A model generated the notes under the pieces. That model worked only from the letters and a program-made list of their open reading frames with translations, did no database searches and had not been told where the DNA came from. Shown here in pieces: positions 19,283 to 32,153 of a stretch of DNA of 64,000 nt. A program made the position numbers and the translations under genes. Within the stretch, counting starts at the first letter, position 1; each line of letters opens with the position of its first letter. Origin of the DNA: Acidobacteriota bacterium (lineage in GTDB: Bacteria > Acidobacteriota > Thermoanaerobaculia > Multivoradales > J023); contig JAJCXO010000025.1 of the NCBI GenBank assembly GCA_029263395.1, positions 1 through 64,000 on the forward strand. Reading direction: 5' to 3'.

Positions 19283-21541
19283 CTACTTGTAGACAATCAC
19301 GAGCCGAGGCTCGAAGCCCACCGCCTCGCGACTGTGGAACTTGATTTCGCCGTTGCCGCCCGTTGCATCGACTAGAAAGCCATGGTTCGCGAACGTGCCA
19401 TCAACCCAGGCTTGGACGAGGGCAGTGACGTCGGCATCGACGTAGACGCCCGTCGTAGACGTCACCAACGAGCCTGACGCTGTGGCATCAAAATCGCCAC
19501 CCGAGTTCGTCCAGGAAGTGGGCTCATCGCTATAACCCCAGTCGGCGCCAGCCGTGTCGACACCCGTCCCTTCCGACCAACTCTTAGTGAGGCGATGGAC
19601 ATTGACCGTTACGCCCACTTTCTTGCGGGTGACGTAAAGCTCGAGTTTGGCAGAGGTCACAGTCGCCGACGATGGGACCGTCGACAGATCGAACTGCAAC
19701 AGCGAACGGCGTTGTTTACCGCTGTCAGCCTTCAACCTAATGTCGGTCTCGTCACCTAAATTCTTGTCGGTCTTCGAGGCGTCGATATAGGTGTCGGCCA
19801 CCGCAATGAAGGACTCGGCAACCTGGATCGTAACGGTCGTCGAGCCGGTCAACAGCACGCTGTCGGTCGCCGCGGCGGTGATCGTGTGGGTACCAGCCGA
19901 CAACACCGATGTGCTGAACGAACCACCGGAGCCAATCACCCCGTCGATGTCCGAGGTCCAAACAAGCGCTGATGTCAGGTCGCCATCCTCGACGTCGGAT
20001 GCGGAGCCGGTGAACGCTACACTGTCTCCCACCGTTGCGGTCGAGCCGCCAGCTGGAGCAGTAATCGTGGCACTCGGAAACGCATTGCTGGAGCCACTGC
20101 AGCCACTCGAGCCAGTCGCCGGCAGTTGCGACAGGTTGTCCAGGGCGGCCCGGATGTCGACGCGGCCATCACCACACTTCGCTGCCCCCGATCCAAAAAT
20201 CGGATCAGCATAGGATAAGGCATTGTCGACTTGGGAAAATCCAACGCTGCCCGCCGTCCCATCCCCCTTGGCATCAGCCAACAACGCCACCGCCCCAGAG
20301 ACCCAAGGGGCGGCAAACGAGGTACCCGAGGCCCCCGCCCATCCACCACCCGGGTAGACCGTGATGACGTTTTCCCCTGGCGCTGCCAGGGTCACCAAGT
20401 CGTTGCCGAGATTGGAAAAGGCACTCACATAGTCTCCGGTGTCGGTTGAGCCGACTCCAAACACGTTACACAACCCCGCCGGGAAAACCATCGATTCGAG
20501 ACCTTCGTTGCCCACTGAGGCCACCACGCTGACGCCATTCTGATCGGCGTAGTCCATTGCCGTGATCAATTCCTGAGAAGGGATCTCGAGACTGAAGCTC
20601 ATGTTGATCACTGTTGCACCGTGGTCCACCGCGTAATAGATCGCACGCACAACATCAAAGACGTTCGCTCGGCCATCGCCGTCGAAAACCCTCAGCGGCA
20701 TAATCTTGGCTTCTGGCGCCACCAGGTGCACAATGCCGGCCACCATCGTGCCGTGGCCAAAGGCTTCCGGAATGGCCGTTGGATCGAGTTGGTTGATCTG
20801 GTTGTTGCCAAGAATGGCCATCGACGACTGATTGATCACCAGGACATCGTCGCTGCCCAGAATGGCCATCGACGACTGCCCGAGGATGGCCATCGACGAT
20901 TGATCCAGAACACTCCACTCCGACGCGTCGCCGGCTTGCTCGAGCAGGAAGTCGTAACCTGGCACCAAGTGGCCATCGAACAAGGCATGGTTGGGATCGA
21001 TGCCACTGTCGATAATCGCGACCACAGCTCCATCGCCGGTCTCCACGGTCCGAGCCGATGAAGCTCGCACGAGATTATCAGCATCCTGCTGGACATAACC
21101 TGTCCAGACGTAACGGTCGGCACCGAGCGAGTCCTTGCCGAACAACACCGTGCTGGTGTCGCCCAAGGCACCCAAGATCTCACCGATGGATTGACTGAGG
21201 ACCACGTTGCCAGTGGTCTCAGGGAGGCTCGCCAGGAACACTTCCTCGATCACGACCACCGAAGGTTCTGCGGATACCACATCAGAAATGATCTGCGCGG
21301 GTACCACCGAGGGATCCGCACGCACAACACAGACCTCCTCGCCCGTCGGTGCTGGATCGAGGCGCCCAACTTCCGTCAGGCCATGGCGCGCCAGCACTCC
21401 AGCAATCTCTGAGGCTGCTGCGCGGATAATGAAATCGTTGTTCGACGCCGATGTGGGTGGTTGTTGGGCGAGCGCACTTTGCGTCAGCCCGAGAAACATT
21501 GCGATCGACAAGAGTACAATAATGCTGGTCCGGTTTTTCAT
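19283..21541 (-). CDS. Secreted subtilisin-like serine protease with PKD-like and DNRLRE domains
   Basis: The 752-aa protein starts with a signal peptide (MKNRTSIIVLLSIAMFLG, ending SALAQ). Residues 40-110 resemble an inhibitor propeptide. The S8 catalytic triad is clear: Asp178 in IIDSGIDPNH, His263 in GHGTMVAGI and Ser408 in GTSFAAPW. Between Asp and His sits an insertion with three copies of QSSMAILG. A PKD/cadherin-like domain follows at about 490-575 (TITAPAGGSTATVGDSVAF). The C-terminal 165 residues look like the DNRLRE/CBM96-type domain (ADTYIDASK, LLQFDLSTVPSSATVTSAKL, WxxG, FHSREA). The enzyme is probably exported and anchored or bound to polysaccharide by the C-terminal domain. Confidence 0.93.
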   Translation of the reverse strand: MKNRTSIIVLLSIAMFLGLTQSALAQQPPTSASNNDFIIRAAASEIAGVLARHGLTEVGRLDPAPTGEEVCVVRADPSVVPAQIISDVVSAEPSVVVIEEVFLASLPETTGNVVLSQSIGEILGALGDTSTVLFGKDSLGADRYVWTGYVQQDADNLVRASSARTVETGDGAVVAIIDSGIDPNHALFDGHLVPGYDFLLEQAGDASEWSVLDQSSMAILGQSSMAILGSDDVLVINQSSMAILGNNQINQLDPTAIPEAFGHGTMVAGIVHLVAPEAKIMPLRVFDGDGRANVFDVVRAIYYAVDHGATVINMSFSLEIPSQELITAMDYADQNGVSVVASVGNEGLESMVFPAGLCNVFGVGSTDTGDYVSAFSNLGNDLVTLAAPGENVITVYPGGGWAGASGTSFAAPWVSGAVALLADAKGDGTAGSVGFSQVDNALSYADPIFGSGAAKCGDGRVDIRAALDNLSQLPATGSSGCSGSSNAFPSATITAPAGGSTATVGDSVAFTGSASDVEDGDLTSALVWTSDIDGVIGSGGSFSTSVLSAGTHTITAAATDSVLLTGSTTVTIQVAESFIAVADTYIDASKTDKNLGDETDIRLKADSGKQRRSLLQFDLSTVPSSATVTSAKLELYVTRKKVGVTVNVHRLTKSWSEGTGVDTAGADWGYSDEPTSWTNSGGDFDATASGSLVTSTTGVYVDADVTALVQAWVDGTFANHGFLVDATGGNGEIKFHSREAVGFEPRLVIVYK
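20807..20902 (-). repeat. QSSMAILG peptide repeat inside the subtilase
   Basis: Three copies of the octapeptide QSSMAILG occupy residues 214-221, 222-229 and 238-245, in an insertion between the catalytic Asp and His. The DNA copies are nearly identical (core aatggccatcgacgactg on the plus strand), so the expansion is recent or conserved by conversion. The first two copies are directly adjacent and the third is separated by eight residues. A similar motif in other subtilases of related bacteria is my recollection, not checked. Confidence 0.85.
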
Positions 21542-21671: not shown

Positions 21672-21716
21672 CAATTGACATGACTTTTTCATGACACCTC
21701 CTACCGACCGGTCGGT
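21672..21716 (+). promoter_or_regulatory. Promoter-operator module, copy 1
   Basis: A TTGACA (21675-21680, inside caattgacatgac) is followed 28 nt from its start by accgaccggtcggt, a perfect 14-bp palindrome at 21703-21716. The palindrome type is typical of TetR-family operators and sits where the -10 to +1 region would be. The -10 element is weak, as expected of a regulated promoter. It reads toward the solute-binding protein and CHAT genes. The regulator is not encoded in the window. Confidence 0.5.
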
Positions 21717-21900: not shown

Positions 21901-21946
21901 CAATTGACATGACAGATTTTCGCCACTCAGATACCGACCGGTTGGT
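21901..21946 (+). promoter_or_regulatory. Promoter-operator module, copy 2
   Basis: The 13-mer caattgacatgac of copy 1 recurs at 21901-21913. It is followed by accgaccggttggt at 21933-21946, the same palindrome with one mismatch. The spacing from TTGACA to the palindrome is 29 nt against 28 in copy 1. A TCAGAT lies 17 nt after TTGACA as a possible weak -10. This copy is the nearer one to the ATG at 22072. Confidence 0.5.
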
Positions 21947-22071: not shown

Positions 22072-23874
22072 ATGAATAAAGGAAGGGACGAGAGGCATTC
22101 AGTGCCTTGCGGACGATATGTGTTCTTAATTGGGGCGCTGCTCACCGTGATCGTGTTTTTGGTGGCGTGTGCGCCACCGGAGCCACCGCCTGCCGCTCTA
22201 GAAACCTCGACCGACTGGACGACCGCCACCGACCGGGCCGCCGTTGGACGGCTCGGCGGGCGACTGGTCGTTGCCCTAGACGGTGAACCGCAGACTTTGA
22301 ACCCGGCACTCGTGACTGAGCTCACCTCGCGAGCCGTCGTCCACCGGATGACTGCCGATCTCATCCAGATCAACCGCGCATCACAGGACACGGAGCCAGC
22401 ATTGGCCGAACGCTGGACGATGTCCGACGATGGCCGCCGCTACACATTGAAGCTACGTCCCGGGCTGCTCTTTTCCGACGGCCATCCGGCCAGCGCTGAT
22501 GATGCTGTCTTCAGCTTCCAGGTTTATCTAGATGAAGCCGTTGCCTCACCGCAACGCGATTTGCTGGTGTTCAGCGGCCAGCCCCTCACCATCCGCAAGA
22601 TCGATACGTTGACGGTCGAGGTTGAGCTCCCGGCACCTTACGCCGCTGCCGAGAGGCTCTTCGACGGTTTCGCGATCTTGCCGCGACATCTCCTCGGGCA
22701 AGCCTACGAAGAGGGCCGGCTGACCGAAGCTTGGAGGCCCAATACCCCCCCCGAAGAGATTGCCGGCCTAGGTCCCTTCCGGCTGCAGGAATACCGTCCT
22801 GGAGAGCACTTGGTCTTGGAGCGGAATCCCCATTTCTGGAAACATGACGCCGCCGATCAACAGCTGCCTTATCTCGACGAAATCATCTTTCTGTTCACTC
22901 CCAAAGAGACCCAGACCCTCCGTTTCTTGGCTGGCGACCTCGACATCATCAACCGACTCAGCCCGGAAGACTTCGCGGTCCTCAACCGCGACACCAGCCA
23001 CCAGGAATACCGTCTTCATGATCTCGGGGCTGGCCTCGACTACCACTTCTTGTTCTTCAACCTCAACAACCTCGCCACCAAGAACCTGCCCCAAACCACT
23101 CTGAAACAGGATTGGTTCCGCCAGCTGGAATTCCGCCAGGCAGTCCAGGCAACCCTTGACCTCGAAGCCATCGTCCGCCTGGTCTTTCAGGGACGTGCCA
23201 CGCCATTGGCCTCGTTTGTAACACCCGGTAGCCAGCGCTGGGTGAATCGCACCCTCGAGCCACCCGACCGATCGCTGGAACGAGCCCGGCGGCTGCTCGA
23301 AGCGAACAACTATCGCTGGGATTCCGAGGACCGCCTCCATGACGACAATGGCCAGCGGGTGGAATTTTCTCTGTTGACCATCGCCAGCAGCCCGCAGACC
23401 ACCCGCACCGCTACCCTGGTCCAAGACGATCTGCAACAACTCGGTATCGATGTGCAAGTCACCAGCCTCGAGCTCGGGGCAGCGTTGGAACGGTTGTTCG
23501 AGACCTATGACTACGACGCTTGCATCCTGGCTCTGGGAGGCAGCGACGCGGATCCGAATCCAGCAATGAACGTTTTACTGTCGAGTGGCAGCCACCATCT
23601 GTGGCGTCTTGGCCAGAAGTCGATGTCTCCGTGGCAAGCCGAGATCGATCGGTTGATGCAAAAGCAGCGGTCCACTCTCGATCCGGACGAAAGGAAACGC
23701 CTGGTCGATCGGGTGCAGTGGCTGGTGGCCGAGAATCTCCCAATGCTCAGTCTGGTCAGCCCCAACGTGCTAGTTGGTGCCAAAACACTGCTCGGTAACT
23801 TTCGTCCAGCGATCCTGCCTCATCACACCTTGTGGAATGCTGAGGAGCTTTTTTGGCAGCCACCGGACAGCTAG
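22072..23874 (+). CDS. ABC-type solute-binding lipoprotein, family 5 (peptide/nickel type), without permease genes
   Basis: The 600-aa protein begins with a lipoprotein signal whose lipobox is FLVAC (Cys about residue 28). It then shows SBP_bac_5 features: DGEPQTLNPALV near the mature start, WTMSDDGRRYTLKLRPGL, FSDGHPASADDAVFSF, and a long two-lobe body ending at the usual length. Members bind oligopeptides, sugars or metals outside the membrane. No permease or ATPase gene is adjacent, so it is unlikely to work as a simple importer subunit here. Instead its stop codon overlaps the start of a TPR-CHAT protease gene. A GTG at 22102 (GAGAGG 6 nt upstream) would give a shorter, more typical signal and is an equally good start. 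Confidence 0.9.
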   Translation: MNKGRDERHSVPCGRYVFLIGALLTVIVFLVACAPPEPPPAALETSTDWTTATDRAAVGRLGGRLVVALDGEPQTLNPALVTELTSRAVVHRMTADLIQINRASQDTEPALAERWTMSDDGRRYTLKLRPGLLFSDGHPASADDAVFSFQVYLDEAVASPQRDLLVFSGQPLTIRKIDTLTVEVELPAPYAAAERLFDGFAILPRHLLGQAYEEGRLTEAWRPNTPPEEIAGLGPFRLQEYRPGEHLVLERNPHFWKHDAADQQLPYLDEIIFLFTPKETQTLRFLAGDLDIINRLSPEDFAVLNRDTSHQEYRLHDLGAGLDYHFLFFNLNNLATKNLPQTTLKQDWFRQLEFRQAVQATLDLEAIVRLVFQGRATPLASFVTPGSQRWVNRTLEPPDRSLERARRLLEANNYRWDSEDRLHDDNGQRVEFSLLTIASSPQTTRTATLVQDDLQQLGIDVQVTSLELGAALERLFETYDYDACILALGGSDADPNPAMNVLLSSGSHHLWRLGQKSMSPWQAEIDRLMQKQRSTLDPDERKRLVDRVQWLVAENLPMLSLVSPNVLVGAKTLLGNFRPAILPHHTLWNAEELFWQPPDS

Positions 23875-26780
23875 AGGAATGGCTCGGAGAGCTGACCGAC
23901 CTCGAAGACGATCGAGGAGCGGAGGACTTCCTTCGCCAACATCCCGAGCTCCACACCCGTGAGAGCCTCGAACAGCTCAGCCAGGAGGTCCTCAAAGCCC
24001 TGCGACAGGATCGCGACCTGGCAGAGCGGTTGGCACGGGCCAGTCACAAGCTAGCCGAAGCCATGAACGATGACTACGGCCGTGGCCTGAGCGCCAAGTC
24101 CTTCGGTAACATCCGCTATCTCGCCGGTCACTACGAGGCGGCTCTCAAGTACTACCACACTGCCGTGGAGCTGTTTCGAGCCCGCGGGTTGGCAATCGAC
24201 GCCGCCGTCACCCTCTCGAGCTCGATCCATGCGCAGATCCTGCTGGGGCGATACGACGACGCATTCGCCGCTGTCTCAGAGGCTCGAGCAGTTTTCGAAC
24301 AGCACGACGAACGGTTGCTGCTAGCACGGTTGGACAGCAACGAGGCACAGATCTTCATGCGCCAAGATCGACTCGCCGAAACCGTAAAACGGTACGAGCG
24401 TGTGTTGATCGAATTCCGCCAACACGGTGAGCCTCAGGACATCGCTGCGGCGCTCTACAACATCGCGGTCTGCCGTATCGGGCTCAGTGACTTTCCACAA
24501 GCACTGGCAGCCTATGAGGAACTCTCCGACCACTGCGCACGCCACCAGATGAGGCCGGTTGCCGCCCAGGCCGACTACAACGTCGCCTACCTCTACTTCC
24601 TGCGCGGCGAATACATGCGGGCCCTCGAGCTCTACCGGCGGACTCGCGATCAGTGTGACGAGCTCGGCGACCCTTACCATCGTTCGCTGTGTGATCTCGA
24701 TCAGGCTGAGATCCATCTCGAGCTCAACCTGACTGAGGATGGTGCCCGTTTAGCCAATCTCGCCTTCGCCTGCTTCGAGGAGCTCGGCAACGGCTACGAG
24801 GCCGCCAAAGCGGTCGCCTTCCAGGCGATCGCCGCTAGCCAACAGCACACGGCACAGGAGGCCCTCAAACTCTTCGACCAAGCCCATGAACGTTTTCAGC
24901 GTGAGGGCAACGGGTTATGGCTCGCGATGATCGACCTGTACCGGGCGCTGATCCTGGAGGAAGAAGGTCGCTTGGACGAAGCCCGACAGCTGGCGGAACG
25001 AGCGATGAGCCTCTTCGTCAATTACCACCAGGTTGGCAAAGTTGCGCTCTGCGAGTTGTTATTGGCTCGTATCGAGCTGGCTGCGGGCGATGCGAGCGCC
25101 GCTCGCGAGCGCTGCCTCACGGCGCTCCAAAGACTGGAGGAAATCGACGTTCCTGCCTCCACCTACCAAGCGTATTTTTTGCTTGGGCAGGCCGAGGAAG
25201 CCTTGGACGAACCGCAGGCGGCAATTCGCACGTATCGCCGTGCACACGAGAGACTCGAGAATCTACGCAGCCATTTGCGCGGCGAAGAGCTCAAGATTGC
25301 CTTCTTGAAGGACAAACACGAGATTTACGAGAGCTTGGTCTGGATGACCCTGGCGAACCAGCCAAACATAGAGGATCAACGCGCCGCGCTGCTCTACATA
25401 GAACAAGCAAAGTCCCGCAGTCTTGCTGATCTAGTGGCCTTCCGAGCAGATGCACTGCCCGGATCAGGCGACCGGACGCTAACCACCAAGCTACGCCAGC
25501 AGCGGGACGACCTCAACTGGACCTACCGCCAGATCGACCTGCACGAAATAAAACTGGCACAATTCACCAGCTCCAGCCTCAAAGGAGACGATTCGCAGCG
25601 CCGTCAGAACGATACGGCTCGACAAACCGAGGCTCCCAAGATCGACGAACTACGCCGTCGCTGCCGCGAGCAAGAGCGTCGACTACTCCAGACCCAGGCT
25701 GAGCTGCGCTCGACGGACGCCGAGCTCAGCTCGTTACAAGCCGCCGGCTGCCTCGACCTCGAGGTACTCCAGGCTGCGGTTCCCGAGGGAGCACTGCTGC
25801 TGGAATACTACGAGGCTCGCGGTACCCTCTTCGTAGGCTTGCTGGGACGAGACCAACTTGCTGTTCGACGTCTCGGCGATGCCAGCAAGGTGCGCAAACT
25901 GCAGCATTTCCTTCAGTTTCAGCTCTCCAAGTTCCAGCTCACGCCGGACTACCTCGAAGCCTTTGGAGCAGCCATCTATCGCACAGCTCTGGCCCACCTC
26001 GAGAATCTCTACACCGAGCTCATAGCTCCGATCCGCGATCACCTCGAGACAGACCGTCTGATCATCGTTCCTCATGGCGGGCTCCACTACCTACCCTTCC
26101 ACGCGCTCTGGGACGGTGAAGAGTTCCTGCTCGATCGCTTCGTCATCTCTTATGCACCGAGCGCAAGCGTCTTCGCGATGTGCTGTGCCAAACCGGCAGC
26201 CGAAGGGGCAAAGGCATTGGTACTAGGAGTCCCTGACGAGCTCACACCCCACATCACCGGCGAGGTCGAGGCCGTGGCAGCGTCACTCCCCAATGCCGAA
26301 CTGTTGATAGGTGAGGCAGCCACCGCCGAGCGCCTGCGTGCCCTGGGCCCCAAGTGCCGCCAAATCCACATCGCTACCCATGGTTTCTCGCGCTTCGACA
26401 ATCCGATGTTCTCTGCAATCCAGCTTGGAACGTCGAGGCTGACACTCTTCGATCTTTATGACCTGGAGCTAGAAGCTGAATTGGTTGTGCTTTCGGGTTG
26501 CGCCACCGGTGTCAACGTGGTCGAGAGCGGCGACGAGCTGATCGGCTTGACCCGTGGGCTGTTATTCGCCGGTGCCCGCTCGGCCTTGGTGACGTTGTGG
26601 GACGTCAACGATGCCTCGACCGCCCACTTCATGACCGCTCTCTATCGCCACCTCGAAGCCACTGAAGACCGCGCCGAAGCCGTTAGGCAGGCCATGCTGG
26701 AGCTGCGCCAAACCCACCCCCATCCATACTACTGGGCGCCTTTTGTTCTGATCGGTAAACCCTCTGCACGAAGAGCCTGA
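23853..26780 (+). CDS. TPR-CHAT protease-like protein
   Basis: The 975-aa protein starts at a TTG (23853) with GAGGAG 5 nt upstream, inside the 3' end of the solute-binding protein gene (22-nt overlap), so translation is coupled. Residues 50-500 are TPR repeats (for example GHYEAALKYYHTAVELF). A charged helical or coiled-coil stretch spans about 540-650. The CHAT domain occupies about 690-970. Both catalytic residues of this caspase-like clan are present: His843 in HIATHG and Cys883 in LSGCATG. The end HPYYWAPFVLIG is typical. CHAT proteases are usually triggered by a partner and cleave a specific substrate. No predicted target is obvious, but the upstream lipoprotein and the small gene downstream are candidates. 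Confidence 0.92.
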   Translation: MAATGQLEEWLGELTDLEDDRGAEDFLRQHPELHTRESLEQLSQEVLKALRQDRDLAERLARASHKLAEAMNDDYGRGLSAKSFGNIRYLAGHYEAALKYYHTAVELFRARGLAIDAAVTLSSSIHAQILLGRYDDAFAAVSEARAVFEQHDERLLLARLDSNEAQIFMRQDRLAETVKRYERVLIEFRQHGEPQDIAAALYNIAVCRIGLSDFPQALAAYEELSDHCARHQMRPVAAQADYNVAYLYFLRGEYMRALELYRRTRDQCDELGDPYHRSLCDLDQAEIHLELNLTEDGARLANLAFACFEELGNGYEAAKAVAFQAIAASQQHTAQEALKLFDQAHERFQREGNGLWLAMIDLYRALILEEEGRLDEARQLAERAMSLFVNYHQVGKVALCELLLARIELAAGDASAARERCLTALQRLEEIDVPASTYQAYFLLGQAEEALDEPQAAIRTYRRAHERLENLRSHLRGEELKIAFLKDKHEIYESLVWMTLANQPNIEDQRAALLYIEQAKSRSLADLVAFRADALPGSGDRTLTTKLRQQRDDLNWTYRQIDLHEIKLAQFTSSSLKGDDSQRRQNDTARQTEAPKIDELRRRCREQERRLLQTQAELRSTDAELSSLQAAGCLDLEVLQAAVPEGALLLEYYEARGTLFVGLLGRDQLAVRRLGDASKVRKLQHFLQFQLSKFQLTPDYLEAFGAAIYRTALAHLENLYTELIAPIRDHLETDRLIIVPHGGLHYLPFHALWDGEEFLLDRFVISYAPSASVFAMCCAKPAAEGAKALVLGVPDELTPHITGEVEAVAASLPNAELLIGEAATAERLRALGPKCRQIHIATHGFSRFDNPMFSAIQLGTSRLTLFDLYDLELEAELVVLSGCATGVNVVESGDELIGLTRGLLFAGARSALVTLWDVNDASTAHFMTALYRHLEATEDRAEAVRQAMLELRQTHPHPYYWAPFVLIGKPSARRA

Positions 26781-27018
26781 AGAGGCTGCTAGTTAACGAC
26801 CGAGAGCCGGCACCGTCAGGTTGGCGTTATCTCGTTCGTTATGTTCGCATCTTCTAATAACCCTATCGGGAGGAGGCAAAGAGACTTCGAGCAACTATTT
26901 CGAAGGCCCAAGGCCAGCGCGTTCGGCTCCCGATCACGAGAAGCTCGTCAGGGACTGACTTACCTCTTTTTTAGCTGGGTATTCTTTGTTTCGCCAGCAC
27001 AACTCCATAGGATCGATC

Positions 27019-27489
27019 ATGGCACCCACTGACAGCCCCAACCCATTTCAGGATCGCACCCGCTTACCGGCTAAGCTGGTTTTTGACACTGCCGGTCGGA
27101 CTTTAGCCACCGGCACTCGCCGACGTGAGAGCTCGAGCCGGCATGTGCTTTATGAAGTTGAAGATTTCTGCCTCGACTTGCGGCTCGAGACGTCACCACA
27201 GTCGGCTGCGATGATCGTTGTCGGCCAACTCGCGGACCGTCAAGACCCTCTGGCGCCCCTCGCCGGCCTATCAGTCTTCGTGATGGCGGAAGACACACTC
27301 GTCGCCCGCACCACCAGTAACCGCCAAGGCGAGTTCCAGCTCAGCATTGACTCGGCCAGCGAAGCCGAGCAGGGCGAAAGGCCATCGTCCACGCTCGACA
27401 ATCGGGGCCTGAAGACTTTCCAGGATTTGATGAGCCTCTGCCTTCCGTTCGGCGACGAAGAGTTCGTAGAAGTCCCGCTCTACCCGTAG
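27019..27489 (+). CDS. Small CHAT-associated protein with carboxypeptidase-regulatory-like region
   Basis: The 156-aa product starts at the ATG at 27019, with AGGA 7-8 nt upstream. Residues 10-30 read RLPAKLVFDTAG, followed by YEVEDFCLDLRLE and VVGQLADRQ. The segment LAGLSVFVMAEDTLVARTTS, then NRQGEFQLS, resembles one beta-sandwich repeat of the carboxypeptidase-regulatory type. The end returns to FGDEEFVEVPLYP. Similar small proteins accompany TPR-CHAT and ECF sigma genes in Acidobacteriota as far as I recall. No signal peptide is seen. It lies 238 nt after the CHAT gene on the same strand. Its function is unknown. Confidence 0.7.
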   Translation: MAPTDSPNPFQDRTRLPAKLVFDTAGRTLATGTRRRESSSRHVLYEVEDFCLDLRLETSPQSAAMIVVGQLADRQDPLAPLAGLSVFVMAEDTLVARTTSNRQGEFQLSIDSASEAEQGERPSSTLDNRGLKTFQDLMSLCLPFGDEEFVEVPLYP

Positions 27490-31392: not shown

Positions 31393-31523
31393 TCTCTTAA
31401 TTAGGCCGAAGGAACTCATTATATCTGTTCTCTATTTGACGCCCAGGCACTGAATACTACGTAGCCTTGGACGTAGCGAAGATCAGATGTCGAGTTCCAA
31501 TGTTTTACACTGGAGGAAGTATT

Positions 31524-32153
31524 ATGCGTACAGGAATCGTAACTAAGACCATCGTTTACAATATTCTCATGGTCCTGATGGCCTCGAGCCTCTTCGCGAA
31601 GGTCCACTCGATTCCCTCTTCGACTCGACTCGTCCAAGGAAAAGTCACATTGGCCAACGGCGAACTTGTTAAGTTCGCTGTCTTGGAAGGGGCGATGCTG
31701 ACCGTGATGGATACGGAATCGGGTTACTACTACGGCTTTACGCCATCGATCACAGACGAAGCAGATCTAGCTGTCAACGTTACATCGTTCAATATCGAGA
31801 AACGCGGTCGAGACTTACACATACTTCGGCAAGCTGGTTCCATCGAGACCTTTTCTGGATTAAAGGCAGCTCTTCCGCAAGATTCCAACGCTACGATCGA
31901 GATTACCGGCATCATAGAAAGCGGTTTGTCTCAAAGCGAATTCGAGGCGCTTCGAAACAGTTTGGCCGTTCCGGCGAAGATAGGGAGTGAAACCAATCTT
32001 TCCGATCAGCGAGACGGAGACGAATGCTGTGTCACCTGCGGCTCAACAACGGCCTGCGCTTGCGCTGTCGAGATGAGTTGTGGCAGCTGTTGTGCGGGTA
32101 CTTGTTGTAGTAGCGGCGGTGGTGGCCCCAGCATAGAGCACAAACCGCAATAG
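31524..32153 (+). CDS. Exported protein with a 10-cysteine C-terminal tail, unknown function
   Basis: The ATG at 31524 has GGAGGA 6 nt upstream, which decides the start against the longer frame from 31467. The 209-aa product opens with a hydrophobic signal-like segment (IVYNILMVLMASSLFA) cut probably near residue 20-25. The middle 140 residues are mixed alpha/beta with no motif I recognise. The last 45 residues contain CCVTC, then CAC, CGSCC and CC groups: ten cysteines in about 30 residues, then a GGGG linker. This could be a metal-binding tail, a disulfide knob or a modified-peptide core. No maturation enzyme is adjacent. Local GC is lower than in the neighbours. Confidence 0.75.
   Translation: MRTGIVTKTIVYNILMVLMASSLFAKVHSIPSSTRLVQGKVTLANGELVKFAVLEGAMLTVMDTESGYYYGFTPSITDEADLAVNVTSFNIEKRGRDLHILRQAGSIETFSGLKAALPQDSNATIEITGIIESGLSQSEFEALRNSLAVPAKIGSETNLSDQRDGDECCVTCGSTTACACAVEMSCGSCCAGTCCSSGGGGPSIEHKPQ

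Follow-up and report, generated by a model that had tools for sequence, protein, structure and literature searches.

The genes at positions 22072 to 27489 of the window, meaning the whole 64,000-nucleotide stretch of acidobacterial DNA analysed here, are best explained as a reduced and derived version of a module conserved among Acidobacteriota, which would act as a peptide-triggered sensor-protease switch, a reading to which, on sequence comparison, we give about an even chance. The full module consists of several components: an OppDFBC importer with its solute-binding protein (SBP), an ECF sigma factor, a TPR-CHAT protease, a small protein joining an anti-sigma domain to a beta sandwich, and a secreted S8 subtilase. 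In the window copy (Table 1), the ECF gene is absent, and the SBP is of the type used by Opp peptide importers, with the matching permease and ATPase genes located elsewhere in the genome.

Table 1 Features of the module copy in the window, with positions counted from its first nucleotide.
Feature	Positions	Strand	Basis
Secreted S8 subtilase, divergent to the SBP gene	19283..21541	-	PF00082 E 1.5e-39; DNRLRE; prodomain in AF2 model
QSSMAILG, three copies	20807..20902 (20879-20902, 20855-20878, 20807-20830)	-	Loop between catalytic Asp and His
SBP_bac_5 oligopeptide-type solute-binding lipoprotein	22072..23874	+	PF00496 E 1.2e-77; lipobox LVAC, Cys33
TPR-CHAT protease	23853..26780	+	PF12770 E 7.2e-66 and TPRs; TTG start; His843, Cys883
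Small protein, 156 aa, Ig/MG-like beta sandwich	27019..27489	+	Family alignments, AF2 model of full-length relative, fold match

The sequence-only reading had described an SBP_bac_5 lipoprotein whose gene overlaps by 22 nt that of a CHAT protease with intact His and Cys, followed by a small associated gene, and this gene structure holds. The open reading frames agree with the stated coordinates, and the overlap lies at 23853-23874. The SBP carries the LVAC lipobox and scores 261.9 bits against PF00496 (cut-off 32.4), which makes it an SBP_bac_5, OppA-like protein. The CHAT gene starts with a TTG at 23853, with GAGGAG shortly upstream, and its C-terminal domain is assigned to the CHAT proteases by a PF12770 match of 223 bits and by the His/Cys dyad: His843 (IATHG, nt 26379-26381) and Cys883 (LSGC, nt 26499-26501) are present and are kept in the paralogue described below and across relatives. 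The small gene is real, since homologues exist; comparison with them moves its likely start from TTG 26986 to ATG 27019, and its product matches no Pfam family above cut-off. To our knowledge, natural triggers are known for few CHAT proteases. Between the divergent subtilase and SBP genes lie two TetR-operator-like palindromes (21703-21716 and 21933-21946), one reading ACCGACCGGTCGGT and the other carrying a single mismatch, a result equalled by 6/100 shuffles; the promoter scan of the locus returned no sigma-70-like sites. At 31467-32153 of the window, a predicted 228-aa protein with the cysteine-rich tail CCVTCGSTTACACAVEMSCGSCCAGTCCSS belongs to no Pfam family.

The source genome (G000; 10.68 Mb, 291 contigs) encodes a second SBP of this kind, about 50% identical, on contig C285, where SBP, ECF sigma factor, TPR-CHAT (47%), small protein and S8 subtilase follow one another on one strand. 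The C285 SBP (L006:8720-10636) contains a tandem insert, RQTVSERQTVLKRQTVSERQTVSERQ, that its orthologue from the same genus (in L123) lacks. A genome-collection scan together with 149 genomes of the class, 12 of which carry the SBP, yields 26 SBP-clade loci, the named ones all from Acidobacteriota. Their neighbourhoods were mapped with nine profiles and checked by Pfam, and 24 are informative. The genomes are drafts, mostly metagenome-derived, in which contig ends conceal some neighbours. The acidobacterial relatives of the window SBP are about 50-57% identical to it, the majority beside OppDFBC, and the usual gene order is OppD, OppF, OppB, OppC, SBP, ECF, CHAT, small protein, S8. CHAT follows the SBP, directly or past the ECF gene, in 20 of the 24 informative loci, mostly through overlapping ORF junctions; this recurrent close coupling of SBP (or SBP-ECF) and CHAT is not due to chance, and because the two genes are co-conserved neighbours in these 20 loci, they are very likely linked in function. 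The sequence-only reading would have an SBP-CHAT pair conserved without permeases: the pair is conserved, but permeases usually adjoin the SBP.

CHAT does not adjoin the SBP in L125, L126, L128 and L130 (4/24); in L126 the SBP, ECF and small-protein genes follow in this order, without CHAT between the last two. Conversely, CHAT-ECF-small-S8 modules without this SBP adjacent occur in L199, L201 and L193-L197. The last group, from another family of the class, comprises ECF-small-CHAT modules with subtilases of about 850-1160 aa that lack octapeptides (see below), and a more distant SBP_bac_5-type gene (E 2e-54) lies near the module in L195. Together, these two sets of exceptions make the importer a frequent, not an obligatory, companion. 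Relatives consistently encode the small protein next to CHAT and ECF. Across the G000 genome there are 42 CHAT-domain matches (for example L136 and L158-L169). Many of them have an ECF sigma factor as neighbour, in some cases together with a putative anti-sigma protein of zf-HC2 type, which amounts to a broad CHAT-ECF theme.

Most relatives encode the SBP at the end of a complete OppD-OppF-OppB-OppC-SBP operon, and OppC adjoins it in 20 of the 26 loci. In the source genome, contig C233 holds part of OppD followed by OppF, OppB and OppC, with no SBP downstream. Against the module's Opp proteins, the C233 OppB and OppC score 355 and 364 bits, whereas the genome's other Opp set (C35) reaches 182 and 136, so that by orthology the C233 genes encode the putative cognate permease and ATPases. 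The same split between SBP and Opp is found in a same-genus genome (G023, contig C349), and all 12 SBP-bearing genomes have an OppC orthologue (E < 1e-50), which neither of the two family genomes without the SBP has. The SBP tree places the window protein as sister to that of L124, where Opp is adjacent (support 100/99), inside the Opp-linked clade; given this nesting, the separation of SBP and Opp is most simply read as derived. The composition is that of an Opp/Dpp importer (OppABCDF), with an SBP_bac_5 protein, two BPD_transp_1 permeases and two ABC ATPases, but in this genus the binding-protein gene lies apart from the permease genes, and one permease set accompanies two SBPs. The lipobox is missing from several SBPs of the clade, the C285 paralogue included, so anchoring as a lipoprotein is not conserved. 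The earlier claims of an orphan SBP with 'no permease' and of a lipoprotein sensor outside the cell therefore give way to an Opp-type importer context, in which a permease operon elsewhere in the genome, that of C233, would, as judged at the sequence level, use this SBP, a case that the sequence-only reading had itself named as refuting.

The small protein would connect the protease to the sigma factor. In most ECF-bearing copies, its N-terminal ~75 aa carry WxDFxR and HLxxGCxxC. The best three PDB matches to the profile of this domain are all anti-sigma proteins of solved structure, with marginal E-values (RsiW, 0.0045; 3hug chain B, 0.049; DdvA, 1.0), and the alignment of the profile with zf-HC2-type proteins that neighbour other CHATs has E 8.6e-9. 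Full-length relatives thus contain the anti-sigma domain, with HxxxxCxxC in most, the zinc ligands being gone from the small proteins of L006, L131 and L132. The AlphaFold2 model of a full-length relative (mean pLDDT 74.5) consists of four helices followed by a beta sandwich, and a PDB fold search, informative on the beta domain and not on the helical part, pairs the sandwich with the MG1 domain of E. coli alpha-2-macroglobulin (Z 9.9, 78 residues). The family is a putative combination of an N-terminal ZAS-like anti-sigma domain and a beta sandwich: it resembles ZAS (zf-HC2) anti-sigma factors such as RsiW in the sequence of the N-terminal domain, and differs from them in its fusion to an Ig/MG-like beta domain and in the absence of the ZAS part from the window copy.

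The window protein begins after the region that would hold the His-Cys-Cys ligands. In both ECF-less copies of the module, those of the window and L124, the helical domain is absent and the sandwich retained, whereas small proteins beside an ECF gene keep the anti-sigma-like domain. This joint loss of sigma factor and anti-sigma domain, probably a single evolutionary event, supports an anti-sigma role for the small protein. A third copy, about 55% identical and likewise without the anti-sigma domain, lies at the edge of a contig, next to the end of a CHAT gene (L135:563-1051, G000:C253).

The divergent subtilase belongs to the module, as its homology (41%) to the C285 subtilase indicates, and S8 genes are co-located in most relatives' loci. 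Its PF00082 match (136.5 bits) and Asp/His/Ser motifs (DSGID, FGHGT, GTSF) place it in the S8 family, and its layout comprises a signal peptide, an I9-like prodomain, the catalytic domain, Big_7 and CBM96/DNRLRE C-terminal domains. In the complete module, this secreted protease would generate extracytoplasmic peptides for import by the SBP and Opp; the TPR part of CHAT would sense them, and the activated CHAT domain would cleave the small protein. In ECF-bearing copies, by analogy with Csx29, Csx30 and CASP-sigma, the sigma factor would thereby be released; the window copy would retain the sensor-protease step, with output no longer passing through a local ECF. We infer this mechanism from the Craspase precedent, in which the TPR-CHAT protein Csx29 of type III-E cleaves Csx30, the inhibitor of the ECF sigma factor CASP-sigma (PMC10028731), and from the layout of RRNPPA signalling (Rap-Phr, PlcR, AimR), in which propeptides, sometimes with one to four pheromone copies, yield peptides that Opp imports (PMC11343458).

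The likeness to Craspase lies in a TPR-CHAT protein encoded with an ECF sigma factor and its would-be inhibitor, and in protease-controlled sigma release, here proposed. The differences are that the putative inhibitor pairs a ZAS-like domain with a beta sandwich, in place of Csx30; that a peptide importer apparently provides the input instead of a guide RNA; and that the window copy lacks both the ECF and the ZAS domain. The CHAT protein scores 55.2 bits against the Csx29 model NF041237, below the curated cut-off of 300, and besides this sub-threshold match the scanned module proteins include no Cas families. With RRNPPA systems the module shares an extracellular protease, an oligopeptide permease and a cytoplasmic TPR protein. 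Unlike them, it is found in Acidobacteriota instead of Bacillota, its output would run through a CHAT protease, and its candidate peptide is embedded in the secreted protease itself; against the model of AimR, the RRNPPA member compared, CHAT scores 15.9 bits (cut-off 70). In the open-access literature, we found no publications on CHAT with SBP, with Acidobacteria or with pheromones; searches on CHAT with ECF or anti-sigma factors returned the Craspase and CalpL papers, this module appearing in none, and those on subtilases and Planctomycetes returned no further relevant CHAT paper.

The candidate peptide is the octapeptide repeated in the subtilase. QSSMAILG occurs nowhere else in the genome beyond its three S8 copies, with no separate propeptide gene, and a six-frame search of the loci found no octapeptide motif in CHAT, SBP or small protein. 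The C285 subtilase has four copies of QSLQPILE, also between the catalytic Asp and His, and other module subtilases repeat QSTVAVLD, QSTGVILD, QRTRAILG, QSITALVE, QSFASILE, QSVAVILE, QSLRAILE (five copies) and others. At least two identical copies are present in 18 subtilases besides that of the window, and not in those of L131, L132 and L201. Same-genus orthologous pairs share an octapeptide (window/L122 and L006/L123), as do both paralogous subtilases of one locus in L124 and L199, and most other loci differ. Family f13 has related ECF-CHAT-S8 modules, that of L195 among them, and their subtilases lack the repeats; at the search threshold applied, no SBP of this clade turns up in f13 genomes.

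These repeats could be a pheromone carried in tandem inside its own maturation protease, imported by Opp and received by a TPR-CHAT protein that frees the ECF factor, an extension of the module model that we consider unlikely. The subtilase would cut itself at Q[S/R]xxx[I/L/V][L/V]x, a pattern also present in some prodomain linkers, releasing many copies, and different loci would use different octapeptides as separate codes. A rival, compatible with the sensor-protease switch and opposed to the pheromone only, is that the octapeptides form a structural or homotypic beta-strand element, an 8-residue periodic fold or amyloid-like zipper, and are not a signal source; this has an appreciable probability, short of even. 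The 8- or 16-residue spacing of the copies, the degenerate 8-mers that separate them and a hydrophobic/polar composition suited to beta strands agree with such an element. Structural repeats normally diverge, however, and here 45 of the 46 Q-initial loop copies are identical within their own protein (pattern census of the 16 proteins with two or more), despite synonymous differences of up to nine nucleotides between copies. The census is a fairer measure than an all-synonymous count, which depends on having picked copies that are identical. An identical copy also lies in the linker after the prodomain, the usual self-cleavage place of subtilases, in L053, L124, L199 and L212, and the AF2 model leaves the repeat loop unstructured, at a mean pLDDT of 51 from a shallow alignment.

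A secreted S8 protease with a peptide importer is a classic nutritional pairing, and the carbohydrate-binding/adhesion-type C-terminal domains of the window subtilase fit one: the subtilase would digest external protein, Opp would import the peptides, and the role of CHAT and ECF would be limited to adjusting expression to the supply of peptides or amino acids, the repeats being unrelated to signalling. Such scavenging is rather unlikely, for it leaves unexplained both the octapeptides, identical within a locus and different between loci, and the tight tie of a single importer set to one TPR-CHAT lineage among 42 CHAT loci. That the module serves phage defence or programmed cell death, with the CHAT protease doing the killing, is very unlikely. 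CHAT proteins do occur in defence systems, but the PADLOC matches, to BovA, are weak (E 3.9e-5), no defence neighbours are seen, and the module couples to a peptide importer, an ECF factor, an anti-sigma protein and a secreted protease; the abundance of CHAT loci beside ECF genes in this genome points to regulation, and the defence assignment was dropped. Least probable of all is an orphan lipoprotein signalling from outside to CHAT inside without a transporter, which has the overlapping genes and the lack of a local permease in its favour and was dropped in view of the SBP-less Opp set on C233 and the Opp neighbours that the SBP has in relatives, the variable lipobox and the lack of any transmembrane relay gene in the module.

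In conclusion, of the sequence-only reading the SBP-CHAT link stands, while the absent permease and the external sensor do not, and the ECF/anti-sigma context and the subtilase had been missed. If the sensor-protease switch is real, a TPR-CHAT protein with an ECF sigma factor and an anti-sigma factor outside CRISPR suggests a possible origin of the Craspase logic, in which a protease frees a sigma factor, and in these Acidobacteriota a protease-sigma switch would be tied to a peptide importer, with the locus-specific octapeptides as candidate ligands for CHAT proteases.
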